Origin: Candidatus Obscuribacterales bacterium | GTDB taxonomy: Bacteria > Cyanobacteriota > Vampirovibrionia > Obscuribacterales > Obscuribacteraceae | Reading direction: 5' to 3' | Length of the DNA stretch: 64,000 nt | Assembly (NCBI GenBank): GCA_020050835.1 | Contig: JAGVKB010000084.1 | Span: 1-64,000, forward strand | Shown here: positions 22,688 to 37,257 of the stretch, one piece after another | Layout: each line of letters begins with the position of its first letter | How positions within the stretch are numbered: the stretch's first letter is position 1 | The notes under the pieces: model-generated | Database searches by the model: none | Seen by the model: the letters and a program-made list of their open reading frames with translations, nothing else | What the model was told of the DNA's origin: nothing | Made by a program: the position numbers and the translations under genes

Positions 22688-24502
22688 CTAACTCTCTTCA
22701 GTTGCTGGCAAACAGAACCAAAAGGTGCTCCCCGCACCCTCCTTGCTTTCTACACCGATGCTACCGCCATGTTGCTCGATTAGCGCTTTGCAAATCGGCA
22801 AACCGAGCCCGGTTCCGCGCTTCTTCTTCGCGTCGGAGATGCGCACCTGCTTGAATTTTTCAAATATTACATCTCTATGCGACTCTGGAATTCCCAAACC
22901 CTGATCAGCGATTCTAACCTCGACCATCTTGTCCTTACGGTCGACCGTCACATCAATCACCCCGCCTACCGGCGAAAACTTGATCGCATTGGACAGAAGA
23001 TTGATCACGACTTGTTCGATCCGGTCTCCGTCCGCAATCACAGTTGGAGCATCAGCGGGAGTATTAATGGTGATAGAATTTTGCTTCGCGAATTCTCCGA
23101 CCGCTTCAGCCGAGCTGCTCAAGACTTTTGCAAGCGGCGTACTTTCGAGCTCTAATTCGAACTTGCCGGCTTCGAGCTTTTCCATATCCAATAGATCGTT
23201 AACAAGACGAATCAGTCTCGCTCCACTCTTTTCTGCTGTAGCAATAATCTGCTGCCCGCGCTCATTCAATTCGCCCATTTTGCCGGTTTTGATGATAGCC
23301 ATTCCACCAAGTATGGAGGTGAGCGGCGTTCTCAAGTCATGACTGACAATCGCGACGAACTCTTGCTTCAATCGCTCGAGCTCCTTGCGCTCTCTGATGT
23401 CGTGAACTACACAGAAAAGAGCCTTTTCTGCGGCCGAGTAGTGCACAGACCAGAGCATATCCAATAGAATGCCATCCTTACTTTTGACTCGATTCTCGAA
23501 TTGTCCGGTCGATTTTGTCTCTACAATCTCTTGAACAGACCTTTCGGTATGAGTAACATCTTCTGCTGCGATTATCTCAAGATAATTACTTCCGACCAAC
23601 TCCTCCGGAGTGTATCCCCAGACGGTGAGCGACGCAGGATTTACCTTGGAGAATACACCGGACTGATCGAGTGAGCAGATAACATCCACCGCATTTTCGA
23701 CGACAGCTCGCTCCTTTCTCATGGCCTCAGTTAGCTTTGCAGCCATGTCGTGAAAGGTTTGATCCAAGTCTGCAATCTCATCGGCGCCGGACAGTGGCTG
23801 AAGCAACTGTGCTCCGACAGACAACCGCTTCGAATTGTCCTGCAAGATCTTAAGGCGGTTTACCAAGGCGGTTGCGAAAAACAGCGCCAATGAGATTGTC
23901 ACTAGAACATCGACCGCCACACCAGCATAGACAAGCAGTTGAGCGCTGTCACGCCACTGATTTTGCCGCTTAAGTCGTTCAGCGCTAACCAGGGATTCCT
24001 CGGCAATGATCCGTTCGAGCTGAGCCGACACCTCGTAGGAAGCTCGCCATACTTCATTGACAGCCGCCGCCAGCACCGCCGGCGGAGAGGACTGGTGAGT
24101 GTTTACGAACTGAAAGGAATTGACCGCAACCTGTCCTAAAATCTCCAAATTAGCAGCGACCTGCCGCTGGCGAATGTTGTCCTTAATCAAGTTTGCTAAT
24201 GCTTCCGATTCCTTTGGCAGGCGAAGGGCACAATGCTGGGCCGACCGCAGATAACTTTGTTGCCTGGTCTCCACAATCGCCGCTGTTGCCATCGCCAGCT
24301 CACTGGCAAGAGCATTGACGTGGTCCGCACGGAGCATAACTTCTTTGGCCCGCACTTCGCGTACTGACTCATGCTCGACTTGTTTGAGCAGAATAGAAAG
24401 CGACAAAATAAAGGTAAGCTCCAGCACCAAGGGTACGCCGACCAAAATCAGCCCCTTTTGAGCCAGCTTGATATTAAACGCTTTCCTTAGGGTAGAGTGC
24501 AT
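22688..24502 (-). CDS. PAS-domain sensor histidine kinase, paralogue 1 of a mirrored pair
   Basis: Membrane sensor of a two-component system, 604 residues. A first transmembrane segment lies at about 17-40 and an extracytoplasmic helical region at about 41-185. The second membrane segment is at about 190-213, followed by HAMP (about 214-265) and PAS (about 266-375). HisKA has the phospho-acceptor H388 in VSHDLRTPLTS, and the ATPase domain shows NLLSNAIKFSP near 501, DQGLGIP near 533 and GTGLGLPICK near 563. The start is the ATG at 24502; an in-frame start further upstream would add a non-homologous stretch, and the paralogue at 28202 begins at the equivalent residue. Divergent from the TPR gene at 24570. 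No receiver gene is adjacent. Confidence 0.95.
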   Translation of the reverse strand: MHSTLRKAFNIKLAQKGLILVGVPLVLELTFILSLSILLKQVEHESVREVRAKEVMLRADHVNALASELAMATAAIVETRQQSYLRSAQHCALRLPKESEALANLIKDNIRQRQVAANLEILGQVAVNSFQFVNTHQSSPPAVLAAAVNEVWRASYEVSAQLERIIAEESLVSAERLKRQNQWRDSAQLLVYAGVAVDVLVTISLALFFATALVNRLKILQDNSKRLSVGAQLLQPLSGADEIADLDQTFHDMAAKLTEAMRKERAVVENAVDVICSLDQSGVFSKVNPASLTVWGYTPEELVGSNYLEIIAAEDVTHTERSVQEIVETKSTGQFENRVKSKDGILLDMLWSVHYSAAEKALFCVVHDIRERKELERLKQEFVAIVSHDLRTPLTSILGGMAIIKTGKMGELNERGQQIIATAEKSGARLIRLVNDLLDMEKLEAGKFELELESTPLAKVLSSSAEAVGEFAKQNSITINTPADAPTVIADGDRIEQVVINLLSNAIKFSPVGGVIDVTVDRKDKMVEVRIADQGLGIPESHRDVIFEKFKQVRISDAKKKRGTGLGLPICKALIEQHGGSIGVESKEGAGSTFWFCLPATEES

Positions 24503-24512
24503 GAGTATTGCT

Positions 24513-24518
24513 ATTTTA
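24513..24518 (-). promoter_or_regulatory. Candidate -10 element of kinase 1, implying a leaderless transcript
   Basis: TAAAAT ends exactly 10 nt before the ATG at 24502. Transcription would start 3-4 nt before the start codon, and there is no ribosome site. The second kinase has the same geometry. No convincing -35 is visible. Confidence 0.4.
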
Positions 24519-24569
24519 ACATTCGCATACCGATTGCCGCGAACAGCCGACGCTCTCTGGAAGTAACAA

Positions 24570-25700
24570 GTGGCACCACTCATATCAAACAGCGAGAACG
24601 AACACACCGCCAGTGGTGCCCACCGCAACAGCCAGCCAGACATCGGTATCGCGCTGCAATGGCTGCTCGGGCTGACGGTCATCTTTCTTGTGTCTTTGCT
24701 TTCGCTATTGCTTTGTCTGCCGGATGGAGACAAACTTGAACAGCAGGCGCTCCGCCTTTACGAACATGACAACAGAGACTGGCGCACCGAGCCGCTGCTT
24801 TTGCTCTCGATTGTCTGGGACAAGGTGGTTCTAGCTCCCGACGATCGTACCCTCGCTCGCAGTTATCGCTCGCTGGCGGAGATCTATCTTGCCAAAGGCG
24901 AATCGGACAAGTTTGAGAGCACCGAGCGGAAGGCGCTTGCTCTATTGCAGGACGTTCAGAAGCGAGAACGCGAGTCGCTCGCCTATAGCTATTTAAATGC
25001 CAGAGAGCTGATTGATGTCCTGAGCACGCTAACTGAGTACTATCTAAAAACCGGTCGGACCAGCGAGGCAAAGCTGATGCTGAACCAAGCGAAAGAGATC
25101 TACCATCAAAAGCGTCAACAAGTGTCCGAAGAGCAAATGATTACTTTATTGAAGCAGGCAAGTAGGCTCAGACAGCTACTCTCTGGAACCGTTTTGAAAG
25201 TACCGGAGTTGACTCCTCGCTGGAAGAAAAAGAAATTGGCTTTCCAAGCACTCATGACAGCCAAATATAAAGGTCTGCCGGAATCCGCAGTCGCTCAATT
25301 TGCCGCAACTGCACACTGGCATTTCCTGTTGGACCAGGTCAATCAATATGAGCGAATGAACAGATTTCCCGAAGCCACACAAACGCTCGAAGAGATGGTG
25401 GCAACAGTAAAAACTGCAGGCGTTAGCCCATTGCTCACAGAACTGTCATTGTTGCGGCTCGGTTTCCTTCACCAACTCCAATCAGATTATCCCCGTGCCG
25501 CCTCGGACTACGAGCAAGTGATTGGCATGCGCTCGAGCATAAACGGCAATAACGCCGTTTACAGGGCATTTGCACTAGAAGCTGATGCGGACTTGGCGAA
25601 GCAGATCGGACAGCACCAGAGAGCAGCCAGCAGGTTGGAAGATGCCTTCAAGCTAATCGACCTCTGGCAGGAAAGAAGGTCTGCTCGACGGCAGTCTTAG
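24570..25700 (+). CDS. Membrane-anchored TPR-like protein divergent from kinase 1
   Basis: A 376-residue protein with one transmembrane segment (about 28-50, WLLGLTVIFLVSLLSLLLC). A long helical region with degenerate TPR-like repeats follows. The block VWDKVVLAPDDRTLA at about 87-101, then FESTERKAL, matches the paralogue transcribed from 28177 (WREVMFGPDDPTVA and FESSLKRAA). The start is a GTG at 24570 with a weak GGAAG upstream. It lies head to head with sensor kinase 1, as its paralogue does with kinase 2, so the two proteins may act together: for example, a TPR accessory or sensory subunit for the kinase. That is inference from conserved neighbourhood. No enzymatic motif is visible. Confidence 0.85.
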   Translation: MAPLISNSENEHTASGAHRNSQPDIGIALQWLLGLTVIFLVSLLSLLLCLPDGDKLEQQALRLYEHDNRDWRTEPLLLLSIVWDKVVLAPDDRTLARSYRSLAEIYLAKGESDKFESTERKALALLQDVQKRERESLAYSYLNARELIDVLSTLTEYYLKTGRTSEAKLMLNQAKEIYHQKRQQVSEEQMITLLKQASRLRQLLSGTVLKVPELTPRWKKKKLAFQALMTAKYKGLPESAVAQFAATAHWHFLLDQVNQYERMNRFPEATQTLEEMVATVKTAGVSPLLTELSLLRLGFLHQLQSDYPRAASDYEQVIGMRSSINGNNAVYRAFALEADADLAKQIGQHQRAASRLEDAFKLIDLWQERRSARRQS

Positions 25701-25787
25701 TTAGGAGTTAAGAGCGACTCTGACCGGACTGATCTGGGTTAATTAGAAAAACAAAGTTTGTTTCTGTAGCTCGCAAACATTGCCAAC

Positions 25788-26927
25788 TTATCTGGACTCA
25801 AATTTTGCTACGCGCGAATCACAAAATGATCCCGCCTTCAACTCCGCCTGTGATTTTTTATCATCCTTCAGGTAGGCGTCCAGAAATGCCGTCGTAGCTG
25901 CCTGCAGGCAGTTCAGCATTTTCTTACGATCGCCCTGCTCATCGGCTACGCCCATCTGCTTCTGAATTCTTGCACGCAGACGCTGTCTCAGCCGGTCGCC
26001 AAACGCCCTATTACCAAGTTGGTGACCCGGCAGTTCACCACCGGCAAACCCCTCGATACCGCCCTGCTCGATTCCAGCAAATGTCATATGATTTGCCCCT
26101 TCAATCATCACGAAATACTTGTTACCAGGCGAACTATAATCGAATGGCGCTCTCCGGTCTGCCGGTCTGGAGAGCCCGATCAGATCTTGCGTCCCAGTGA
26201 TGAACATTGCCGGAATCTTGACACCGGCCCAATCGTGTTGGTTCCTGAAGCCAAATCCTAAGTCGTTGCGGCGAACACCTTGCGGAGAGAGAGCTATTAT
26301 TGCGCCCACGCGTGCATCAGCACAAGGACCGAGCCGAGCGGACTCCGGAGCTGGAACTGTCGCACCAGCAATCAACGTTGCCGTGAACGCACCATAGGAA
26401 TGTCCAGCTAGAGCAATCCGTTTCACATTCATTTGCGCTGGAAGTCGCCTTTGCAGCAGCGGCAATGAATCAATAATGAACGAAATGTCCTTCGAACGAT
26501 TTTCCCAACCAGAAAAATCTCTCGAAATGCCCTTGAGCACTACTTTCATCTTCTCCGCCTTGTCCACCGCAGAATTTTCCGTATTAAGCGAGTCCGCGTG
26601 ACTGGGTTGAATGCAGACATAGCCGCGACTCGCCCAATAGCGAGTCAGATACAAGTAGACATCCTTCGAACCGCCTGCTCCGTGAGAAAAGATAACGACC
26701 GGAAACGATCCATCTTTCGACAGCGGATAAGTAACCCTTACTTCGACATCTTTCTTACGCTTGCGGTCGTGAAGTAAAAAAGAGTTGAGTCCTCCCACCT
26801 TGAACTGCGCTTGAACTACCGGTTGAGCAACTCCCTTAACAGCAATTAAATCCTCGGCGAAGCTCGCAGACGTAACTTGAATTGAGCATAGAACCCAGAT
26901 GAGACAAAGCAAAACTCCCACTTTCAC
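25788..26927 (-). CDS. Exported alpha/beta hydrolase (dienelactone hydrolase / PAF-acetylhydrolase-like)
   Basis: A 379-residue hydrolase with a signal peptide (about 1-25, ending SASFAEDL). The oxyanion block FSHGAGGSKD lies near 80-90 and the nucleophile elbow GHSYGAFTA near 171, with serine as the GxSxG nucleophile. ITGTQDLIG near 240 likely carries the acid, and the histidine in GANHMTF near 279 completes the triad. The start is a GTG at 26927 with AAGGAGC 6-7 nt upstream. The C-terminal 80 residues are charged. It lies between the two divergent TPR/kinase pairs and is on its own strand island. An esterase or lipase of the dienelactone hydrolase-like group is likely; substrate unknown. 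Confidence 0.88.
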   Translation of the reverse strand: MKVGVLLCLIWVLCSIQVTSASFAEDLIAVKGVAQPVVQAQFKVGGLNSFLLHDRKRKKDVEVRVTYPLSKDGSFPVVIFSHGAGGSKDVYLYLTRYWASRGYVCIQPSHADSLNTENSAVDKAEKMKVVLKGISRDFSGWENRSKDISFIIDSLPLLQRRLPAQMNVKRIALAGHSYGAFTATLIAGATVPAPESARLGPCADARVGAIIALSPQGVRRNDLGFGFRNQHDWAGVKIPAMFITGTQDLIGLSRPADRRAPFDYSSPGNKYFVMIEGANHMTFAGIEQGGIEGFAGGELPGHQLGNRAFGDRLRQRLRARIQKQMGVADEQGDRKKMLNCLQAATTAFLDAYLKDDKKSQAELKAGSFCDSRVAKFESR

Positions 26928-27019
26928 TATCTTGCTCCTTCGCTCAGCTTCACAACAAACTCACCTCGAACCAAGCAGTTTAGCAAGCAACTACCTTTCG
27001 CCGTCCGAGCCTTTGCCAA

Positions 27020-28177
27020 CTATCTTTCAAACTCGTTAGCAATCTTGTACATCTTGGCGGCTTCTTCTGCCTTACCGCGCGCATTTAGAAAAGCTCCGTA
27101 ATTTCTGGCAGTTACTGCGCTTATCACACCGAAGTCCGTTCGCTGGATCCGACCGATACTATTGAGAGCTTGCCTGTATGCCCTGTCCGCTGAGTTGTCC
27201 TTATGAAGTATCTCTTCGGTCATAGCAAAGCGATTCCAGAAAATCGGTGTATGAAACCACTCGAACTTTTGCTCAGGATCAAGTGCGAGACAGGTAGCTA
27301 AATTTGCGCTCGCCTCAGAATAGCGCTGCGAGTTCAAGTACCATGATGATCTATAGAAGTAAGAAGCCTGCAGGGATCTGATGCATGCTGCCATTGGGGG
27401 AATAATAGCTTCCAAGTTCCTGATTTCACCAACTGAGTGCCAATAGGTCTGCTCGGGAGTGGGGAGCATTGTTCGCGTAACTGGACACCCTCCCTTACGC
27501 AATAGGGAATAAAGCCGCTTGTATTGCCGGTAGAACTCCGCATCCTGCTCAATTGTGGTTGGAGCAGCAACTTTGAGAAAGTTTCTTAGCCTTTCCAGTA
27601 CAACTTCAGCATCTCGATATCGATTGTGCTTCAAATAGAAGTCCGATAGCACTAGATTGGTATTGAAGATCTCACCAATACCCACTGTCTGCGCGCTGAT
27701 CGCCTGATTCTCCATGGAGATAGGCTGACTGGGTGTATAGTTAGCCCATTGAATTTCCGCTGCACGCTTGAGCGACGACTCAAAATCTTCCAACTGATTG
27801 TCTTGCTTCTGCAACGCTGCCAATAGCTTAAGCGCCTGGGCTACTGTTGGATCGTCAGGTCCGAACATTACTTCACGCCACCACAACGAACACATTATCA
27901 GCGGTCTTACAGCAAACTCGCTTTGCTTTTCACGATGCAGATTGACAGCCAGGTTCTCCAAACTTGTTGCATCGGGGCCCCAGAATAACTCGCACAGACT
28001 CACCAGAATTGCTCCGATAGCAACAAGCAGAGCTGCCATTAATACCGCATCTGACAGCATGACTCGCGGTCTTCCGGAATTGCCGATTGCAGCGACAGTA
28101 GTCTGCCCGGAGCTATTGTCGGGACGCCAGTTGACGACCCCAGCTTTTAGAAATTCGTTGGACATTGGAGCACACAT
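27020..28177 (-). CDS. Membrane-anchored TPR-like protein divergent from kinase 2
   Basis: A 385-residue protein paralogous to the one starting at 24570. It has one transmembrane segment (about 42-63, AVLMAALLVAIGAILVSLCE) and a helical TPR-like region from about 90 to the end. The last repeat is clear (GAFLNARGKAEEAAKMYKIA). Shared blocks with the paralogue are the GPDDPTVA region near 108 and the FESSLKRAA region near 131. The start is ATG 28177; ATG 28165 is an alternative that begins MSNEF. Only 24 bp separate its start from that of the divergent kinase at 28202, leaving almost no leader for either gene. Likely functional partner of the kinase; no catalytic motif is visible. Confidence 0.85.
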   Translation of the reverse strand: MCAPMSNEFLKAGVVNWRPDNSSGQTTVAAIGNSGRPRVMLSDAVLMAALLVAIGAILVSLCELFWGPDATSLENLAVNLHREKQSEFAVRPLIMCSLWWREVMFGPDDPTVAQALKLLAALQKQDNQLEDFESSLKRAAEIQWANYTPSQPISMENQAISAQTVGIGEIFNTNLVLSDFYLKHNRYRDAEVVLERLRNFLKVAAPTTIEQDAEFYRQYKRLYSLLRKGGCPVTRTMLPTPEQTYWHSVGEIRNLEAIIPPMAACIRSLQASYFYRSSWYLNSQRYSEASANLATCLALDPEQKFEWFHTPIFWNRFAMTEEILHKDNSADRAYRQALNSIGRIQRTDFGVISAVTARNYGAFLNARGKAEEAAKMYKIANEFER

Positions 28178-28185
28178 GAAGATGT

Positions 28186-28191
28186 TATAAT
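28186..28191 (+). promoter_or_regulatory. Perfect TATAAT of kinase 2, implying a leaderless transcript
   Basis: TATAAT ends 10 nt before the ATG at 28202, so initiation would fall about 3-4 nt before it. A TATAAC on the opposite strand (28189-28184) sits 6 nt before the divergent start. Both genes are therefore probably transcribed from overlapping elements. No consensus -35 is clear. Confidence 0.5.
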
Positions 28192-28201
28192 TCTAGCCCA
28201 A

Positions 28202-30031
28202 ATGCGGACTGCACAAAAATCCCTCTTCACACTTAATCTAACCAGGAAGGGAATGATCCTGGTGGCAGTGCCACTTTTGCTGGAGCTGTCATTTATTCTC
28301 GTGCTATCACTCACCTTGGCTCAGTCGGAGCAGTCCGCCGCACGCGAGTCACATGGCAAAGAGGTGGTCGCCAGAGTTGATTACATCGGCTTGCTGACTC
28401 GAACCATCACCGGATTCACGACGTTTTACCAGGAGACAAGCAGCAGTGAATCGCGTACCTACTACAAAAACGGTGTGCTGAAAACATTTCCCGTCATTCA
28501 CTCGGAACTACAGGCGCTAAAGACAATAGTTCAAAAGAGTTTGAGGCAAGAACAGGTCTTTAGCAACATTGAGCTCTTGACCCGAACGTTAGAGCAGGCG
28601 GCAGAGTACATATTGAATCACGATCAGTTACCGGCCGCAGTTCGCTCCAAGATTCAGCAACGAGCCTCGGTAATCATGTGCCAGATCAATACAGAGCTTC
28701 AGCAACTGGTAGCACTGGAAGCCATCTCCGACACAAGAAAGTTTGGTGAAAATGCCCGCGGGCGAGAGCAGGTAAAGCAGGTCATCTTCGGAGGCGTGAC
28801 TCTTGACGTATTAGTGACAATAACTCTGGCGATATTCTTCATGACCGGAATTGTTAATCGTTTGAAAGTGATGACGGCTAACACATCAAAATTGGAGGCT
28901 GGAGAACCACTCAATCCACCAATTGGCGGGCAGGATGAGATTGCCACTCTTGATTCCACCTTTCATCAAATGGCCGAAGCATTGGTCGAAGCGATGCGCA
29001 AGGAGCGCGCTGTCATCGAGAACACTGTAGACGTCATCTGCACCATCGCAGAAGACGGCACCATTACCAAAATAAATCATGCCGCTCAGATAAACTGGGG
29101 CTACGACCCTCAAGCACTGATCGGTGCTTCCTATAAGCAGATCATTGCATCAGATGACTTATCCAAAACCGAACGTAGTTTCGATGAATTACTGAAAGCC
29201 AAGTCTGTTGGATCCTTTGAAAACAAGATCAATGGCAAGGACGGAACACTGAAAGACGTTCTGTGGTCAGTTCATTATGTCGAGGGTGAAAGAGCTTTCT
29301 TTTGTGTGGTTCACGACATTACCGAGCGCAAGGAATTGGAGCGGCTCAAGCAAGACTTCGTCGCCATGGTGAGCCACGACTTGCGAACACCACTGACCTC
29401 CTTACAGGGCGGCTTGGCACTGCTTTCTACCGGAAAGTTCGGCGAGTTGAACGACCGCGGCACTCAACTCTTAGAAGGTGGCGAACGCAGCATAGACCGA
29501 CTGGTTCGCTTGATCAACGACCTGCTCGATATCGAAAAGCTCGAAGCAGGAAAGTTCGACATGGTCATGAAACTTGCCAAGCTTAGCGACGTCTTCGACC
29601 GGGCACTCACCGATGTAAAATCGCTTGCCGATAAAGGTTCAGTTTCATTGCAGGCATCCGATCAGGGGCTGGAAGTCTATGCAGACAGAGAACGTCTGGT
29701 TCAGGTATTAGTAAATCTCATCGGCAATGCCATCAAATTCTCACCGGCAGGTGGTGACATCAAAATTTCTGCGCATGAGTCAGATGGCTGGACTGTAATT
29801 AAAGTCCGCGACCAGGGACCCGGTATTCCGGCAGCATACAAGGATGCCGTTTTCGACAGATATCGCCAGCTGCCCGGCGGACAAGCGAAGAAGGGCAGCA
29901 CCGGTCTCGGATTAGCAATCTGCAAAGTAATTGTCGAGCAACATGGTGGCACCATCGGCGTGGACAGCGAAGAGGGAAAGGGCAGCACCTTCTGGTTCCG
30001 CCTGCCGTCAGGCAATCCTCTGCCAGAGTAA
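28202..30031 (+). CDS. PAS-domain sensor histidine kinase, paralogue 2 of a mirrored pair
   Basis: A 609-residue close paralogue of the kinase at 22688-24502. It begins the same way (RKGMILVAVPLLLELSFIL versus QKGLILVGVPLVLELTFIL). An extracytoplasmic helical region spans about 42-190, membrane segment 2 about 195-217, HAMP 218-270, and PAS about 272-378. H392 lies in VSHDLRTPLTS, and NLIGNAIKFSP, DQGPGIP and GSTGLGLAICK mark the ATPase domain. It is divergent from its TPR partner with a 24-bp gap. The stop lies 1 bp from the stop of the convergent hydrolase. A REC-kinase fusion gene lies about 1 kb further and could be its phosphotransfer target, which is unproven. Confidence 0.95.
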   Translation: MRTAQKSLFTLNLTRKGMILVAVPLLLELSFILVLSLTLAQSEQSAARESHGKEVVARVDYIGLLTRTITGFTTFYQETSSSESRTYYKNGVLKTFPVIHSELQALKTIVQKSLRQEQVFSNIELLTRTLEQAAEYILNHDQLPAAVRSKIQQRASVIMCQINTELQQLVALEAISDTRKFGENARGREQVKQVIFGGVTLDVLVTITLAIFFMTGIVNRLKVMTANTSKLEAGEPLNPPIGGQDEIATLDSTFHQMAEALVEAMRKERAVIENTVDVICTIAEDGTITKINHAAQINWGYDPQALIGASYKQIIASDDLSKTERSFDELLKAKSVGSFENKINGKDGTLKDVLWSVHYVEGERAFFCVVHDITERKELERLKQDFVAMVSHDLRTPLTSLQGGLALLSTGKFGELNDRGTQLLEGGERSIDRLVRLINDLLDIEKLEAGKFDMVMKLAKLSDVFDRALTDVKSLADKGSVSLQASDQGLEVYADRERLVQVLVNLIGNAIKFSPAGGDIKISAHESDGWTVIKVRDQGPGIPAAYKDAVFDRYRQLPGGQAKKGSTGLGLAICKVIVEQHGGTIGVDSEEGKGSTFWFRLPSGNPLPE

Positions 30032-31084: not shown

Positions 31085-32350
31085 ATGACAAGCATTCTTA
31101 TCATCGAAGATGACGAGCAGCTAGGCCGTATGGTCAAAGACTGGCTGGAGATTGAGGATTACAAAGTAAATCTGGTTCTGACCGGAATGGCAGGCTGGAA
31201 GGAGCTGCAAGACGGCGAATACGACATAGTGCTTCTCGACTGGGACCTCCCCGATATCGACGGCATCGACATCTTAAAAAAGGTTCGCGACGGCGGCAAT
31301 ATGATCCCCATCATCATGTTGACTGGGCGCAAAGCCGTCGACGAGAAAGAAGTTGGTCTGGATCAAGGCGCAAATGACTACCTGACCAAACCGTATCACT
31401 TCAAGGAGCTGACAGCGCGCATCCGCAATGTGCTTAGAAGCCAGCAGCCCAAGGTTGACAAACCGCTTGGTTCGAATAACACAGACCTGCTCAAAGCGGC
31501 TAATTTATTCGGTACCAGCTTACCGAGCAAGTATGAATTCCTGGAGCTAATTGGCGAAGGTGGCATGGCACTGGTATTCAAAGTCAGACATCCTCATTTA
31601 AAGAAAGTACTGGCTATTAAAATGCTGCAAGCGTGCGAACTTAAAGATAACGCCATAGCAAGATTCGAGCGAGAAGCTCAAATCATCAGCCGCTTAGATC
31701 ATCCCAATATTGTCACAGTGTCGGACTTCGGCGTCACAGAAAACCGGCAGCCTTATATGGTGATGGAATACGTGGCGGGAAAGTCACTTGAAGCGATTCT
31801 GGAAGAGCAAGAAGAGTTGCCGCTTTTTGAGATGCTGGATCTCATGGAGCCGGTCTGCAACGCACTTGCCTATGCGCACAAGAATGATATCCTCCACCGG
31901 GATGTTAAACCTGGCAACATAATGCTTAAGTCGATTGACGGCTCGGCACCAATCCCAAAAATTCTGGACTTTGGACTAGCTCGACTTCGCACTTCGGAAA
32001 TGGAGAAAGCACCAGCTTTGACACAGGCCAACGTAGCAATGGGAAGCCCGCCTTATATGAGTCCGGAACAGGTACGCGGGCAGAAGCTTGATGAACGCTC
32101 GGACATTTATTCACTGGCCTGCGTTATTTTTGAAGTTCTAACAGGCTACGTTCCTTTTTGTGCGACAACAGCTTCAGAGATAATGACTAAGCGCCTTGAA
32201 GAACCGCCACTCACCCTTGCCGAAGCCCGCCCGGATCTTTCGCTTCCACCAGCTGTGCAAGACATACTCAGTAAGGCACTGCAGAAGCAACCGGAATTTC
32301 GCTACCAGTCAGTCTTAGAATTGAGAGATGCTCTGCGCGAGCTTCGTTAA
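31085..32350 (+). CDS. Response-regulator receiver fused to a Ser/Thr protein kinase
   Basis: A 421-residue hybrid. An N-terminal REC domain (about 1-120) shows the acidic pair EDD at 8-10, the phospho-acceptor Asp52 in LLDWDLPDIDG, Thr80 in MLTG and Lys102 in TKPYHF. After a linker comes a eukaryotic-type kinase domain (about 150-420). It has a glycine loop GEGGMA at 157-162, lysine K179 in AIK, the catalytic loop HRDVKPGN at 271-278, DFG at 295-297 and SPEQ at 326-329, so it should be active. No membrane segment or PASTA domain is present. The likely role is to translate aspartate phosphorylation into Ser/Thr phosphorylation of targets. The receiver resembles that of the OmpR-type regulator at 40419. 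The ribosome site is weak. Confidence 0.94.
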   Translation: MTSILIIEDDEQLGRMVKDWLEIEDYKVNLVLTGMAGWKELQDGEYDIVLLDWDLPDIDGIDILKKVRDGGNMIPIIMLTGRKAVDEKEVGLDQGANDYLTKPYHFKELTARIRNVLRSQQPKVDKPLGSNNTDLLKAANLFGTSLPSKYEFLELIGEGGMALVFKVRHPHLKKVLAIKMLQACELKDNAIARFEREAQIISRLDHPNIVTVSDFGVTENRQPYMVMEYVAGKSLEAILEEQEELPLFEMLDLMEPVCNALAYAHKNDILHRDVKPGNIMLKSIDGSAPIPKILDFGLARLRTSEMEKAPALTQANVAMGSPPYMSPEQVRGQKLDERSDIYSLACVIFEVLTGYVPFCATTASEIMTKRLEEPPLTLAEARPDLSLPPAVQDILSKALQKQPEFRYQSVLELRDALRELR

Positions 32351-32354
32351 CCGC

Positions 32355-33005
32355 CTAGTTTCCGACCGCGCCTCCCTGACTTGTACCGCCAGGGTTGCCC
32401 GGTGCACCTGGCGCCTGATTGTTCGGATTTCCAGCGTTGTCCTCGACCGGTCTTGTCGAAGTCAGAACAAACGTAATCTCCTGATTGAGGCCAGGAACGG
32501 CCACGAAAAATGGAATTGTTAAAAATGGATCGACTCTAACGGTTGTAGTCACGCTTGCAGATCCTACAGCAGCGTTGCCGGCCGAAGGATCGCTCACTAG
32601 CGATACGCTCTGACTGATTGACTTGGCCTTAGCAAATTGACCGAGTCCGGAGCGACTCCAATTGGTTGCCACTGTAGCGATTGCCTGGTTTGATTCCGCT
32701 TGACTGTTCGGTGCAAGCGCCCCGTTTCTCACCCGCAATGTCAGAGCAGCTTCCCGGGACTGCAGGTGGTTCAAGTACCAGACACACCCGTAAGACACAG
32801 TCATTCCCAGTAGATCGATCAGCGGAAATAGAATCACAAGCAATACAATTCCCACAGCCGGTCCGAATTCTGTAATGGCGCTACCACTGGACTTTCTGAC
32901 ACGTGTCGCCTGATAGAGTACGGAGCGCTTATCTCCTCTGCCGGAAAATCCGGCGGACTTCGTCGTCTTAGAAAAGTTGATTGCTCTGCTTGCCATTCTG
33001 TACAT
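32355..33005 (-). CDS. TadE/TadG-like pseudopilin-type protein
   Basis: A 216-residue protein with a positively charged N-terminus. It has a hydrophobic helix preceded by GSAITEFGPAVG (about residues 38-50), the arrangement of TadE/TadG minor pilins with a Glu at the fifth position of the mature helix. The rest is extracytoplasmic and beta-rich, ending in a Pro/Gly/Asn-rich tail. AGAGGA about 10 nt before the ATG at 33005 favours that start; an ATG at 33029 would add eight residues. No Tad ATPase, TadB/C or prepilin peptidase is nearby. Its stop lies 4 bp from the stop of the convergent REC-kinase gene. Pilin-like export is inferred. Confidence 0.78.
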   Translation of the reverse strand: MYRMASRAINFSKTTKSAGFSGRGDKRSVLYQATRVRKSSGSAITEFGPAVGIVLLVILFPLIDLLGMTVSYGCVWYLNHLQSREAALTLRVRNGALAPNSQAESNQAIATVATNWSRSGLGQFAKAKSISQSVSLVSDPSAGNAAVGSASVTTTVRVDPFLTIPFFVAVPGLNQEITFVLTSTRPVEDNAGNPNNQAPGAPGNPGGTSQGGAVGN

Positions 33006-33454
33006 TGCTCGTTTTTCCTCTTGCGCCATCGCGAATATTACTAGTTAACCGCGAATTTGTTGCAGTGATGCTGCAACTCACTTAGAAGGTCCGGCTCTCA
33101 AGTATTTATCAGACTTGCAGACCAGGTATTACCAATGCAAACGTCTACCTCGAGCCCCTCTCTCCAGAGCTCCAATGGAGCAGTTCAACGGAGTCAACCT
33201 GTCTCAGAAGCAGTTTCGACTCAATACAAATCAGCCATTCATAATGGCTAGATTAGAGCCCTCACTGTGCTGGCAGTTGATTGCAATAGAACGATACAGT
33301 CGACCACACTCGATCATTTTCGCTGGACAGCGGGAATAAGACGAATAAACTTACTCTGTCCATTTTTCTGACCTTCCCCTGCCGCTAGGACCATTTTTGA
33401 GATGTTAGGGCAGCAGCGGAGCTTAAAACCCAACAGCCTGCTGGGAGAGAATCT
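33006..33454. other. About 450-bp divergent intergenic region
   Basis: It separates the minus-strand TadE-like gene from the plus-strand zinc-ribbon gene and must hold the promoters for both. A 74-codon plus-strand frame (33115-33339) lacks a ribosome site and homology and is not called. I find no RNA or repeat. Confidence 0.5.
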
Positions 33455-34696
33455 ATGAGTGTACCGCCCGATGGTAATGCTGCACCAATAGAACATGATC
33501 CTGCAACGGAAGGTGGAGAGCCCGCATCGGACCAGAAGAATCAAGCACTCCTGAAGCCGTCCAAGCAACCTGCCATCGCAAAAACCAGGCTCGAGCTGAA
33601 TGTAGATCCGTCAAGTGAGGCTGAGCAGTCGTCTCTGCATGCCGATCCAGCGACCGCGGTTGGATCGCCTTCAATTGATGGTAACGCTCAAACGGCAAGA
33701 GCTCAGACCAGTACCGCGGCGAGCAAGGCGCCCATATCACCGTTTCAGCGCATAGTTATGAAGCTAGATCCGGTTGTCGCCAAAACCAAGCTCGACGTGG
33801 AAGCCTGCAAGGAAGTCGTAAAAAGAGTCGCCTCTGGACAGGAAGTGAAGTTTCACGAGATTAGAGAGCAACTCGCTCAAAAACCGGCCAAGTACATTGA
33901 GAACTATAAAAAAGCCTCTGCCTGCTCAACTCAGTGGGATGACATGACCGGCACGGATGAATTTCGACTTTGCCAAAAATGCAAACTGTATGTCTACGAT
34001 TTCAAGGACATGAACTATGAAGAGGCTTGCCTTTCGGTTTTCAAAAGAGAGGCAAAGAGCGAGGTTCAGCTGTGGAAACGCTCTGACAGCAAATTCCTTA
34101 CAGTGGACTGCCCAGAGGGAGTCAAGCAAAAGCGCACGAAAGTATTGATGTGGGCCGGCTCCGTCCTTGCCTTCATCGTCATTGTGGCGCTGTTTATGCT
34201 TATGCCGCCCCCCAAACCAACTACAGCCATCAGTGAGCCGGCACCGTCCGCTGCAGAGGATACCCAGCAAGACAAGGTCGTCAACAAGGCGCTCGACAAA
34301 CAGGCTGGCTCGGCTTCGTCGCTACCAGCCTCTGGCACCCCAGAGGGCTGGGACCAGCCGATCGACAGCGCCGTAGAAAAGACCGCCAACGATCGAGCGT
34401 TAGAAGAGAGCTCAGCCGCTCAACAGTACTCAAACACCTCGGATGAGCCTCCAATCTACTTGCCACCGGGCGGCACGGACAGCAGTTTCGCCCCCCCCGA
34501 TGCTCCCCAATCGCTTCCGTCCAACACCCCCGCAAATGCACCCACCCCAACTACCTCCGCTCCTCAGTCGCCGCAGTCATCGGAATCCAGTCAAGGCAAC
34601 ACTTCGAGCATGCAGCCACAGCCTAGCGAACCTTCCTCCTATCGACCGCCCGGAGTCTATTACGCCCCGGTCGACGGTGCTTCCAGCTCAAAATGA
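33455..34696 (+). CDS. Zinc-ribbon membrane protein with disordered tails
   Basis: A 413-residue protein in three parts. About 1-140 is disordered, acidic and Pro/Ala-rich. About 150-225 is a domain I know from uncharacterised proteins of several phyla: C-x3-W-x2-MTG (CSTQWDDMTG) followed by C-x2-C and VYDF (LCQKCKLYVYDF), then W.R.D...LTVDCPEG; the cysteines suggest metal binding. One transmembrane helix follows at about 230-250 (SVLAFIVIVALFMLM), and then about 150 residues of Pro/Ser/Gln-rich extracytoplasmic tail. GGGAGAG precedes the ATG at 33455. It lies upstream of the TadG-like gene on the same strand, with about a 115-bp gap. Role unknown. Confidence 0.85.
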   Translation: MSVPPDGNAAPIEHDPATEGGEPASDQKNQALLKPSKQPAIAKTRLELNVDPSSEAEQSSLHADPATAVGSPSIDGNAQTARAQTSTAASKAPISPFQRIVMKLDPVVAKTKLDVEACKEVVKRVASGQEVKFHEIREQLAQKPAKYIENYKKASACSTQWDDMTGTDEFRLCQKCKLYVYDFKDMNYEEACLSVFKREAKSEVQLWKRSDSKFLTVDCPEGVKQKRTKVLMWAGSVLAFIVIVALFMLMPPPKPTTAISEPAPSAAEDTQQDKVVNKALDKQAGSASSLPASGTPEGWDQPIDSAVEKTANDRALEESSAAQQYSNTSDEPPIYLPPGGTDSSFAPPDAPQSLPSNTPANAPTPTTSAPQSPQSSESSQGNTSSMQPQPSEPSSYRPPGVYYAPVDGASSSK

Positions 34697-34812
34697 TCTC
34701 CGTAACTTGTGCCCGCACATCCGTTGCAACAAATTCGCAGCATTGAGTGGTTATCGTGAATGCATCAGCTGGGGATGAACTTTCGAAAAATGGTTTAGGA
34801 CAGGAGGAAGGC

Positions 34813-37257
34813 ATGAAAAGTCGAAGTAGCCGAGGGGCAGTCTTGGGAATTGTAGTGGCCTCTGCGTTGGTCCTGGTCGTATTGGGAGTAGGTTTTTTCT
34901 TCCTGACCCGATTTCTCGGTGGTGGCATCGAACTACAAAACGCACATGACTCCGGTATGCTCGCAGTGGCGAAAAGAGCTCCCACCGTTTCGGTGAGATT
35001 AGCCCCGGGCGATCAAGCGACTATCTTCGGACCGGTATTGGGCGACGACGGCGGAACCCCTGCCACCACAGTCACACTCCCTCAATACAACCAACTTTAC
35101 GCCTACACATACCTGGTTCAAAGGCTGGCCAATCAGGACAATTCCAGTGGACGTCAAAGGCTCAACGCACAGAGGGCAACGCAAGCGCTCTACCAGGTAG
35201 CCCAAAACCTGGATCGGGAATTGAAACAGCAAGGGCAGGATCGGAGCTTGCTTGCTGAATGTAGTACTTACAGCAGGCAAAACTCAGTGCGCATGCTCAA
35301 AGCCAATGAGCAAGTAAACGCCAACAGAGACCTGAATTCCGAGGATTTCAGAGCCTCCTACTTGGACCGGCAAGATGGTCTGACTCAAATTAAGGTCAGC
35401 GATGAACTGCTGGGAGAAGCGATCAGCCCAAACGATACTGCATTGGGCGTGGACAACGTGCGCTATTTACGTGGCTATCAACCGAGCTCTTTCAGTCGAA
35501 GTCTTCCTGGCATTCAAGGAGCTGTGGTAAACCCGGACCGTCAGCCTCGATTGACTTCCAATTCAGTCTTTGAGCAGTCTCAGAGAGTCGCTGGCTACCC
35601 GTCTAACATTCCGGTTCCTCCAAACAGCTTCCGATCAGACACATCGGTTTCGAATGTGGTTGAGAAGAGCAATCTCAGCACCGAAGTTCGCAGCAGCTCG
35701 ATTGTAGGACTCGCGCCAAGCGTGCAAGGGTTTCCACCAGTGCCGGCACTAGTTAGAGAAGGTTACCTTCACTTCCGGAACAGTCCGCCACCCAATAGTG
35801 GACAGCCTGGATTGACGCACCCTGCTGTAACCGTGGAATACAACAGCATTCCCAACTACACCAATCTTAAAGACGTCGACTTCAGCGTTCGATATCAACC
35901 TGTTATCCTGAGTGCCATTCCTGGTTTTGCAATCGTAACTGGAAACGGCGGGCTGCCAGTCGGGCTATTTTCAACTCGCACCAAACCGTTGCAGGCACTT
36001 TGGACAGTCCAATGGATCGCCCACAACAAAGACCCGGAAAACGTCCCGGCACCGTTCGGCCCACCCCCGCCAGGAGATTTTGGTCTTCCCGAAGTGATAT
36101 TTTTGAATCAGGGGGCATGGCGAGCTTTTGCCTCGCAAATGAGAGGCTTCGTTGGAGCGGCTGGACGGACAAGCGACATTGCGGTTGCATTCTACTTCAG
36201 CGACACGGATTTCTATTTTGCAGCGCCGGGGGATACAATTCTTGCTCCTTATCGCAATTTCGTGGTCAATGTCTTCGGCCGCAATGTTAGGAGCTGCCCG
36301 GTAACGTACTCCGGTGGAGGGCTGCTCACCGCCGGAGAGTTCTACAAAGCCGAGGTTCTGGACCAGTATCGTCAGTGTGTTGCAAACTTCGGTAACTTTC
36401 AGAGAGCTCGGCTATCTCAGCCGATTCAATTGAACTTAGCGACCGGTATGCGCAGCTGGGGAGACACTCTCTTCTTCAACCAGGGCAGAAGCCCTAAGAA
36501 AGTCCTGGGTGTACCAGGAGCACAGGGTAACACGGTCGGTAACGCCTTTCGCTTCACACGGGCAGCCAGCCCAAGCCTGCTCGAGCTACTTCAACAATCC
36601 GGACAAGAGTCTTTGATTGCCTCGACAAGAAGTACCAATAGCCTGGCTTACAGGCTCTACTTGACCGCTCCGGAAAAACTCACCGTGGCGAAGTGTGCAT
36701 CATTCTTGAGCAATCCGGCAAACACCTTGGACCTGGGCGATGACCGGTATGCCTATTTCAATGAGAAAACTGGCAGACTAGTCTGGTCCAGCAATCCGCC
36801 AACCCGCTGGGGAAGAGGCCCCGCTGACGGCGGTCAACGAGCTCCGGAAGGCAACTTTCCGAAAGATCCAGCTAATCCCAGCCGGCCGCTAGACATGAAC
36901 ACCTACTTGCTAGACCCATCGCCGGATGAAGACTACAACACAAACTCAACCAGAAGACCCGTTGCTGACCGTGGCAGGGCCACCGGGATTGCCGGCAGAA
37001 TAAATCAGATCGTTCCGAAAGAGGGATTTGCTGGCAGTCGAACAGATTGGGGAGTCACCAACAGACTGTTTGACGCACGCTCAACGGTAAGACCACGAGA
37101 AGGACGCTTAGGACAGAGCGAAGCGAGAATTAGAATGCTGTGGGAGGTCATCTACAACTACGGCAGCGGGATTAACGGAAATCTGTCAGATGTCTTCTTC
37201 CAAGAGCGCCTGCAAGACACAACAGGTCGTCCGCTGCGCTATCAATTTCCGCTTTAG
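34813..37257 (+). CDS. Large TadG-like pseudopilin/adhesin-type protein
   Basis: An 814-residue protein beginning MKSRSSRGAVLG. A long hydrophobic helix (about 10-35, VVASALVLVVLGVGFFFLT) ends near ELQNAHDSG. This is the N-terminal arrangement of TadE/TadG-like Flp pilus-assembly proteins, which insert in the membrane with a large extracytoplasmic part. The remaining 780 residues are beta-rich with no recognised domain. AGGAGG is placed 5-6 nt before the ATG at 34813 and decides the start over the upstream GTG at 34747. Many TadG proteins are 400-600 residues, so this one is long. A strong-ribosome-site small gene follows immediately. Adhesive or surface role is inferred. Confidence 0.8.
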   Translation: MKSRSSRGAVLGIVVASALVLVVLGVGFFFLTRFLGGGIELQNAHDSGMLAVAKRAPTVSVRLAPGDQATIFGPVLGDDGGTPATTVTLPQYNQLYAYTYLVQRLANQDNSSGRQRLNAQRATQALYQVAQNLDRELKQQGQDRSLLAECSTYSRQNSVRMLKANEQVNANRDLNSEDFRASYLDRQDGLTQIKVSDELLGEAISPNDTALGVDNVRYLRGYQPSSFSRSLPGIQGAVVNPDRQPRLTSNSVFEQSQRVAGYPSNIPVPPNSFRSDTSVSNVVEKSNLSTEVRSSSIVGLAPSVQGFPPVPALVREGYLHFRNSPPPNSGQPGLTHPAVTVEYNSIPNYTNLKDVDFSVRYQPVILSAIPGFAIVTGNGGLPVGLFSTRTKPLQALWTVQWIAHNKDPENVPAPFGPPPPGDFGLPEVIFLNQGAWRAFASQMRGFVGAAGRTSDIAVAFYFSDTDFYFAAPGDTILAPYRNFVVNVFGRNVRSCPVTYSGGGLLTAGEFYKAEVLDQYRQCVANFGNFQRARLSQPIQLNLATGMRSWGDTLFFNQGRSPKKVLGVPGAQGNTVGNAFRFTRAASPSLLELLQQSGQESLIASTRSTNSLAYRLYLTAPEKLTVAKCASFLSNPANTLDLGDDRYAYFNEKTGRLVWSSNPPTRWGRGPADGGQRAPEGNFPKDPANPSRPLDMNTYLLDPSPDEDYNTNSTRRPVADRGRATGIAGRINQIVPKEGFAGSRTDWGVTNRLFDARSTVRPREGRLGQSEARIRMLWEVIYNYGSGINGNLSDVFFQERLQDTTGRPLRYQFPL

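Follow-up and report, generated by a model that had tools for sequence, protein, structure and literature searches.

Organization of the Locus

The window, that is, the whole stretch of 64,000 nucleotides that was analyzed, carries two sensor histidine kinase genes, each lying head to head with a gene for a single-pass tetratricopeptide repeat (TPR) protein. K1 (24502..22688, minus strand; Pfam HATPase_c 1e-30, HisKA 4e-18, PAS 9e-10, HAMP weak) is divergent from T1 (24570..25700, plus strand; TPR_12 3e-10) across a gap of 67 bp, and K2 (28202..30031, plus strand), which has the same architecture in Pfam, is divergent from T2 (28177..27020, minus strand; TPR_12 1e-7) across 24 bp. The start of K1 was placed at the ATG at 24502, where homology begins, the listed TTG at 24733 being a mechanical ORF start. 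Between the two cassettes lies H1 (26927..25788, minus strand), an exported alpha/beta hydrolase with Chlorophyllase/PAF-AH-like matches. Further along the plus strand are REC-STK (31085..32350; Response_reg 4e-26, Pkinase 5e-53), a response-regulator receiver joined to a Ser/Thr protein kinase, and the membrane protein E33 (33455..34696), with one transmembrane segment and a four-Cys domain, which was recognized from an 11-sequence alignment and from its co-location with kinase-TPR loci.

A previous sequence-only reading had described the order kinase(-) TPR(+) hydrolase(-) TPR(-) kinase(+) and taken the cassettes for inverted copies, and both claims held: the strands are as it gave them, K1 and K2 are sister genes, T1 and T2 are homologous, and inverted DNA similarity between the cassettes persists, albeit weakly (120 nt at 75% and 61 nt at 79%). 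K1-T1 and K2-T2 form an inverted duplication, and the hydrolase enclosed by the two copies is unrelated to them. No homolog of H1 was found in any other fetched kinase neighborhood, and the central hydrolase is probably incidental because it does not recur; the hydrolases H1 and H2 were both rejected as parts of a module on the ground that neither recurs at kinase loci. An ancestral position of the cassettes behind truB was likewise rejected: relatives with a readable downstream side of truB (L303-L308 and L312, some of these sequences being truncated) have no cassette there, so that the window copy must have been inserted or moved.

The Kinases and Their Sensor Domain

K1 comprises a transmembrane segment, an extracytoplasmic helical sensor, a second transmembrane segment, and HAMP, PAS, HisKA, and HATPase domains, and K2 has the same layout. 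The sequence-only reading held that the two kinases share their whole architecture; pairwise alignment, which it had proposed as a check, runs end to end at 45% identity, and in a tree of 141 kinases the two are sisters with full support. In both, HisKA and HATPase_c score far over the cut-off, and each has the motif VSHDLRTPL and a G-box, TGLGL. Their HisKA domains with a phospho-acceptor H-box, together with HATPase_c, mark K1 and K2 as two-component sensor histidine kinases.

The CHASE3 profile (PF05227) gave no direct match in K1 or K2; paralogs with homologous sensors match it above the cut-off, at 3e-8 and 6e-9. An AlphaFold2 (AF2) model of K2 residues 1-266 forms a four-helix bundle between two transmembrane helices, and the pLDDT is about 80-90 for the greater part of residues 50-170. 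In Foldseek, the top matches of this model were four-helix-bundle (4HB) sensor domains of histidine kinases and chemoreceptors, including LytS in the XylFII complex, with TM-scores by target of up to 0.8 but E-values above 0.01. The sensor of K1 and K2 is predicted to be a CHASE3-like four-helix bundle, and the host genome, which is of Obscuribacterales type, encodes about 50 kinases with a sensor of this kind.

The TPR Proteins and Their Pairing With Kinases

T1 and T2 score 40.5 and 32.4 bits, respectively, against TPR_12, above the Pfam gathering cut-off of 30.1, and are classed on this basis as TPR repeat proteins. They align at 24% identity over 227 aa, membrane-anchor region included (E 6e-13), and are reciprocal best matches, T1 being the top match of T2 genome-wide. 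Their proposed kinship stands because of this longer alignment and not because of the APDDRTLA/GPDDPTVA blocks to which the sequence-only reading had pointed, whose motif is frequent among TPR_12-type repeats and has no diagnostic value alone. The AF2 model of T2 is all-helical and of low confidence (mean pLDDT 53). No orthologs of T1 or T2 were found among 49 other genomes of the family or in a GTDB pattern scan.

With genes called throughout by one simple ORF caller and TPRs scored by one home-made profile, the upstream neighbor was a TPR protein for 15 of the 49 family kinases in the host genome, compared with 27 of 502 background genes (p=3.5e-7); for other histidine kinases of that genome the figure was 1 of 22. 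The enrichment persisted when thresholds were varied, when the window was excluded (p=3e-6), and when sister pairs were removed. On the tree, the kinases with a TPR neighbor are widely dispersed, with at least 10 changes within the host genome. Pairing also occurs in other genera (4/5 in G017 and 5/8 in G020), but is rare in G015 (1/11) and not enriched in G022, G046, and G052 (3/71 together); in these last four the slot is often filled by a plain response regulator. Pairing is thus a clade-restricted trait, since T1 and T2 lack orthologs in the 49 family genomes and pairs are rare in four other genera. The kinase and TPR genes are in some cases divergent, with gaps of 16-176 bp, and in others overlapping and co-directional (TPR-HK at L134, by 4 bp, L112, L127, and L113), while in the L117 operon, HK-TPR-REC/STK, the genes overlap by 4 and 11 bp. 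Together, the enrichment, the pairs in G017 and G020, and the overlapping genes support the view that this kinase family prefers a TPR protein as its partner. The dedicated partner of the sequence-only reading therefore survives at the level of the kinase family, although it was too narrow in missing REC-STK and E33; its "conserved" pairing applies to the class of pair and not to T1 and T2 themselves, and the search of related genomes that it suggested succeeded in some genera only.

Hydropathy places the transmembrane segment of T1 at about residues 32-50, with the TPRs downstream of it, and that of T2 at about 44-62, with the N-terminus of T2 inside by charge; the charge around the T1 segment is weakly directional (0 before, -2 after). 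Of 19 TPR partners, 14 carry a hydropathic segment at the N-terminus or ahead of the TPRs; the other five have starts that look signal-like by eye. Most are N-in with the TPRs outside by hydropathy and charge, T1 being a weak case, and their starts are signal-like, lipobox, or membrane-anchor segments, L109, L126, L127, and L129 having the look of signal peptides or lipoboxes. With such starts the TPRs should lie outside the cytoplasm, facing the kinase sensor. At L141, beside a family kinase and E33, a Ser/Thr kinase domain, a transmembrane segment, and TPRs form a single protein, in which the TPRs would be outside because they follow the membrane segment and the kinase domain ahead of it must be cytoplasmic.

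REC-STK and E33

REC-STK scores 91.7 bits for Response_reg and 180.7 bits for Pkinase, and its two domains in one protein identify it as a response regulator with a Ser/Thr kinase output. Among the fetched loci, its best matches, at 48-53% identity, come from kinase-TPR-E33 loci or, at L352, from a site next to an E33 gene. Within the host genome, TPR and REC-STK are linked (7/18 vs. 1/24, p=0.007); on the tree, independent pairs are too few to confirm the correlation. E33 matches no Pfam or NCBIfam family. The alignment of 11 sequences revealed a conserved four-Cys (zinc-ribbon-like) domain, predicted to be cytoplasmic, one transmembrane segment, and a Pro/Ser/Gln-rich tail, predicted to be outside. 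In 12 of 25 cases E33 and a family kinase are no more than 6 kb apart, against 7.5% expected (p=7e-8), and E33 is near 9 of 19 TPR-linked kinases against 2 of 31 others (p=0.0012); about half of E33 genes are distant from family kinases.

All four genes occur together at seven loci of the host genome (the window, C56, C50, C97, C47, C92, and C30) and at three in G017 (C71, C167, and C87), with their order shuffled. By this co-occurrence, REC-STK and E33 of the window belong to the same recurring set as the kinase-TPR pairs, the window copy having two kinase-TPR input pairs, one REC-STK, and one E33.

A Proposed Signaling Module and Its Alternatives

On the strength of the gene identities, the inverted duplication, the statistical co-location, and the predicted topology, we somewhat favor the view that Obscuribacterales have a recurring membrane signaling module of four parts, whose contacts and phosphate flow we infer, and that the locus represents one copy of it in which the input is duplicated. 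Its parts would be a histidine kinase that senses through a CHASE3-like four-helix domain outside the cytoplasm; a TPR protein, either membrane-anchored or a lipoprotein, with its repeats likewise outside and beside that sensor; REC-STK, the proposed output of the kinases; and the membrane protein E33. The TPR protein may act on the sensor bundle upon binding a ligand, which could be a protein, a peptide, or an envelope component; the kinase would then set the phosphorylation of the receiver and so switch the Ser/Thr kinase of REC-STK, with E33 as a putative membrane adaptor or substrate. More tentatively, such modules might constitute a clade-specific four-component class, in which the exported TPR protein is an exchangeable ligand-sensing subunit of a CHASE3-like kinase that relays to a receiver-gated Ser/Thr kinase acting on E33, with many parallel copies per genome differing in their TPR subunits.

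The genes might instead be co-located for one process, such as envelope or surface-structure assembly, under common regulation, the TPR protein being a regulated product or structural factor that neither touches nor tunes the kinase. Regulators and their targets are typically encoded by divergent genes with small gaps, many exported TPR proteins function in assembly, T2 has a weak PilW-like TPR score, and a pilin-like ORF recurs beside REC-STK. Even so, this seems rather unlikely, as the overlapping co-directional TPR-HK genes and the L141 fusion better fit a signaling subunit, and the partner class is consistently TPR despite very diverse sequences. That chance and local duplication suffice, the window having duplicated one accidental pair of two abundant kinds of gene, we regard as improbable: about 8% of sampled ORFs (44/536) score as TPR, the two pairs stem from a single duplication, and several genera lack enrichment, but the enrichment persists without the window and is not seen for other histidine kinases, kinases with a TPR neighbor are dispersed across the tree, and there are overlapping operons and four-gene sets in a second genus. 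It is most improbable that the TPR domains are cytoplasmic scaffolds joining the kinase core to REC-STK rather than extracytoplasmic sensors. The charge balance of T1 leaves room for this, and the TPR domain of PknG acts in the cytoplasm (PMC9769921); against it stand the orientation of T2 and most partners, N-in by charge, the signal-peptide or lipobox-like starts, and the order of segments at L141.

Comparison With Known Systems

A literature search found no description of the kinase, TPR, REC-STK, and E33 composition, and the set looks like an undescribed signaling module. The literature searched says next to nothing about signaling in Obscuribacterales. The host clade is related to cyanobacteria but non-photosynthetic. 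Although CHASE3-type sensors are widespread, few of them have a known ligand to our knowledge; the many CHASE3-like kinases with a neighboring exported TPR protein offer a route to how such sensors may sense, possibly via a separable, fast-diverging repeat protein. REC-STK is a candidate bridge from two-component to Ser/Thr signaling, and E33, a conserved family without a model, now has a genomic context.

Several known systems share single features with the proposed module. CpxP, a small exported protein whose gene adjoins that of the kinase CpxA, is credited with tuning the sensor domain of CpxA. The adjacency of the two genes is alike, and sensor tuning here is putative; CpxP, however, lacks TPRs, and a DNA-binding regulator usually forms the output there. 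In the TPR-fused histidine kinases of Bacteroidota, TPR_12-type repeats are the sensing part, a role that is putative here; these are one polypeptide, whereas here a separate TPR protein accompanies a complete kinase with its own four-helix sensor.

The GlnH-GlnX-PknG system of Corynebacterium glutamicum combines an extracytoplasmic partner, a CHASE3/4HB transmembrane protein, a Ser/Thr kinase output, and a TPR in the pathway (PMC9769921), all of which have predicted counterparts here. GlnX is not a histidine kinase, however, the TPR lies within cytoplasmic PknG, and neither a receiver nor an E33-like protein is present; membership was rejected because a histidine kinase serves as receptor here and the Ser/Thr kinase is joined to a receiver, not to TPRs. 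In Clostridium beijerinckii, XylFII binds helices H3/H4 of LytS (PMC9769921), so that a separate extracytoplasmic protein sits on the four-helix-bundle sensor of a histidine kinase, as is predicted for partner docking here, and LytS in that complex (5xsj, 5xsd) is among the matches of the K2 sensor model, with weak E-values. The partner there is a sugar-binding protein and here a TPR protein; since T1 and T2 have TPRs instead of a periplasmic-binding-protein fold, membership of this system was rejected as well, and the two would be at most alike in mechanism.

The Paired Kinase and TPR Genes

The PAS sensor histidine kinases K1 (22688-24502, -) and K2 (28202-30031, +) and the single-pass TPR proteins T1 (24570-25700, +) and T2 (27020-28177, -) surround an alpha/beta hydrolase, H1 (25788-26927, -), and the window ORFs bear out the positions, order and strands that the sequence-only reading had given these five genes. 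Its description of the cassettes as inverted copies was likewise upheld by pairwise alignment, in which both pairs proved related: K1 and K2 align end to end with 45% identity across their full length, T1 and T2 share 24% identity across 227 aa (E 6e-13), and remnants of inverted DNA similarity are still detectable between the K1 and K2 genes. K1 and K2 are fully supported sister genes in a tree of 141 kinases, T1 is the best match of T2 in the whole genome, and T1 and T2 are reciprocal best matches among the fetched loci. The kinship of T1 and T2 is real, although it rests on the longer alignment rather than on the short APDDRTLA-type block previously cited as shared, which is itself common in TPR_12 repeats. 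The ATG at 24502 is most likely the start of K1 because similarity to K2 begins there; the head-to-head gaps between starts are 67 bp and 24 bp. Together, the alignments, the kinase tree and the inverted DNA remnants show an old inverted duplication of a kinase–TPR pair around the hydrolase. The cassette is absent downstream of truB in relatives where that side is readable (some contigs end early), so the window copy reached its place by insertion or relocation. Neither hydrolase, H1 or H2, was accepted as a module part, no homolog of either being found in other kinase neighborhoods.

The sensor part of K2 gave 59 matches, or about 50 genes, in the host genome (G000; 7.0 Mb, 154 contigs). The CHASE3 profile is matched by several K1/K2 paralogs (3e-8, 6e-9) but by neither K1 nor K2. 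AlphaFold2 folds the K2 sensor into a four-helix bundle, with a pLDDT of about 80-90 across most of residues 50-170. Histidine kinase and chemoreceptor sensor domains are among the best structural matches of this model, including that of LytS from its crystal structure with XylFII; E-values of these matches are weak, and TM-scores normalised by target length reach 0.8. ORFs of 1230-1314 aa occur at L106, L120, L136 (three in a row) and L139; that of L120 comprises two complete kinase units, HATPase_c and HisKA stretches each being present twice, while the remaining ones look similar, with sensor and HisKA matches recurring within a single frame.

TPR Proteins Upstream of Family Kinases

Forty further neighborhoods of kinases sharing this sensor (family kinases) were compared with 40 random 20-kb slices and with 20 regions that carry other HisKA kinases, using ORFs from a simple caller and a home-made TPR profile; some of the genomes are fragmented MAGs. 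The TPR load of G000 is heavy, about 8% of sampled ORFs of at least 150 aa (44/536) scoring as TPR. In G000, 15 of 49 family kinases have a TPR gene immediately upstream, compared with 27 of 502 background genes (p=3.5e-7) and 1 of 22 histidine kinases outside the family. The enrichment persists without the window (p=3e-6) and changes little under other thresholds or without sister pairs. All p-values reported here are partly post hoc, since kinase–TPR pairs had been seen beforehand and the E33 and REC-STK families described below were chosen for their recurrence; the fair check comes from the identical treatment given to the other kinases, the random slices and the other genera. Eight of the 15 pairs are divergent, as in the window, and others overlap in operons; TPR-linked kinases are scattered across the kinase tree.

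The sequence-only reading had suggested that the TPR protein is a dedicated partner of the kinase. Among genomes of other genera, pairing is common in G017 (4/5) and G020 (5/8) but rare in G015 (1/11) and in G022, G046 and G052 (3/71 together), where a plain response regulator often occupies the TPR slot. The association is therefore limited to part of the family.

A Recurrent Four-Gene Set

Comparison of whole neighborhoods identified two further window proteins: REC-STK (31085-32350), a receiver domain fused to a Ser/Thr kinase, and E33 (33455-34696), a membrane protein family named here. Family kinase, TPR protein, REC-STK and E33 occur together at seven G000 loci (the window, C56, C50, C97, C47, C92 and C30) and three G017 loci (C71, C167 and C87), in varying order; in C71 they are contiguous as E33, kinase, TPR, REC-STK. 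In the fetched set, the window REC-STK is most similar to those of four-gene loci (48-53% identity) and to one that lies beside an E33 gene at L352, in another MAG. Partial sets include the HK–TPR–REC/STK operons of L117, where gene ends overlap, and L129; at L141, a single membrane protein combines TPR with Ser/Thr kinase, next to a sensor kinase and with E33 nearby. Within G000, TPR and REC-STK appear linked (7/18 versus 1/24, p=0.007), the kinase tree offering few independent pairs.

E33 matches no Pfam or NCBIfam model. Its alignment shows conserved cysteines at 157, 173, 176 and 219 (window protein numbering), and it also has a basic stretch, a single membrane helix and a tail rich in Pro, Ser and Gln. 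Scanning GTDB genomes with an E33 pattern gave ten loci, whose records bear the titles Candidatus Obscuribacterales, Obscuribacter sp., Melainabacteria or 'uncultured bacterium'; the host is accordingly taken as a probable Obscuribacterales-type bacterium, from the non-photosynthetic sister group of Cyanobacteria. Twelve of 25 E33 genes in G000 are no more than 6 kb away from a family kinase, against an expectation of 7.5% (p=7e-8, partly post hoc), about half being located elsewhere, and E33 accompanies 9/19 TPR-linked versus 2/31 other kinases (p=0.0012, also partly post hoc). A homolog with a C-terminal PDZ domain in its tail (L352:9605-11236, from an Obscuribacterales MAG) is encoded directly upstream of REC-STK.

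A 224-aa window ORF (32355-33029, -) with a TadE/pilin-like N-terminus (ITEFGPAVGIVLL) has no Pfam match; weak homologs adjoin REC-STK in L352 as well as kinase and E33 in L141, which makes it a possible, occasional fifth component of the set. An 836-aa ORF (34747-37257, +) follows E33 after 50 bp in the same orientation; it matches neither Pfam nor NCBIfam and has no homolog at other module loci. Two genes divergent from a family histidine kinase, L103:976-3081 and L141:1047-2957, encode proteins that begin with a kinase or kinase-like part, followed by one TM and then by TPRs; the L103 protein has no Pfam kinase match and is possibly a pseudokinase.

Proposed Mechanism and Comparison With Known Systems

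Among 19 TPR partners, a hydrophobic segment clearly precedes the repeats in 14, and the remaining five have signal-like starts, judged by eye; several show a lipobox. With export-type starts on these proteins and the sensor bundle likewise predicted to lie beyond the membrane, TPR protein and sensor would be positioned opposite one another. The TPR protein might then sense a ligand or present it to the kinase, the kinase would set the receiver of REC-STK, and REC-STK could act on E33 or other targets. What the data establish is gene identity, duplication, co-location and a predicted topology; the protein contacts and phosphotransfers of this scheme are all inferred.

The module was rejected as an instance of either XylFII-LytS or GlnX-PknG, as defining parts of each are missing. 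In XylFII-LytS an outer protein docks on a four-helix sensor bundle, and in GlnH-GlnX-PknG a CHASE3-containing receptor is linked to a Ser/Thr kinase (PMC9769921). By analogy with the former, the TPR protein, if outside as predicted, might dock on the sensor bundle of the kinase; by analogy with the latter, a receptor with a CHASE3-like sensor might signal to a Ser/Thr kinase.
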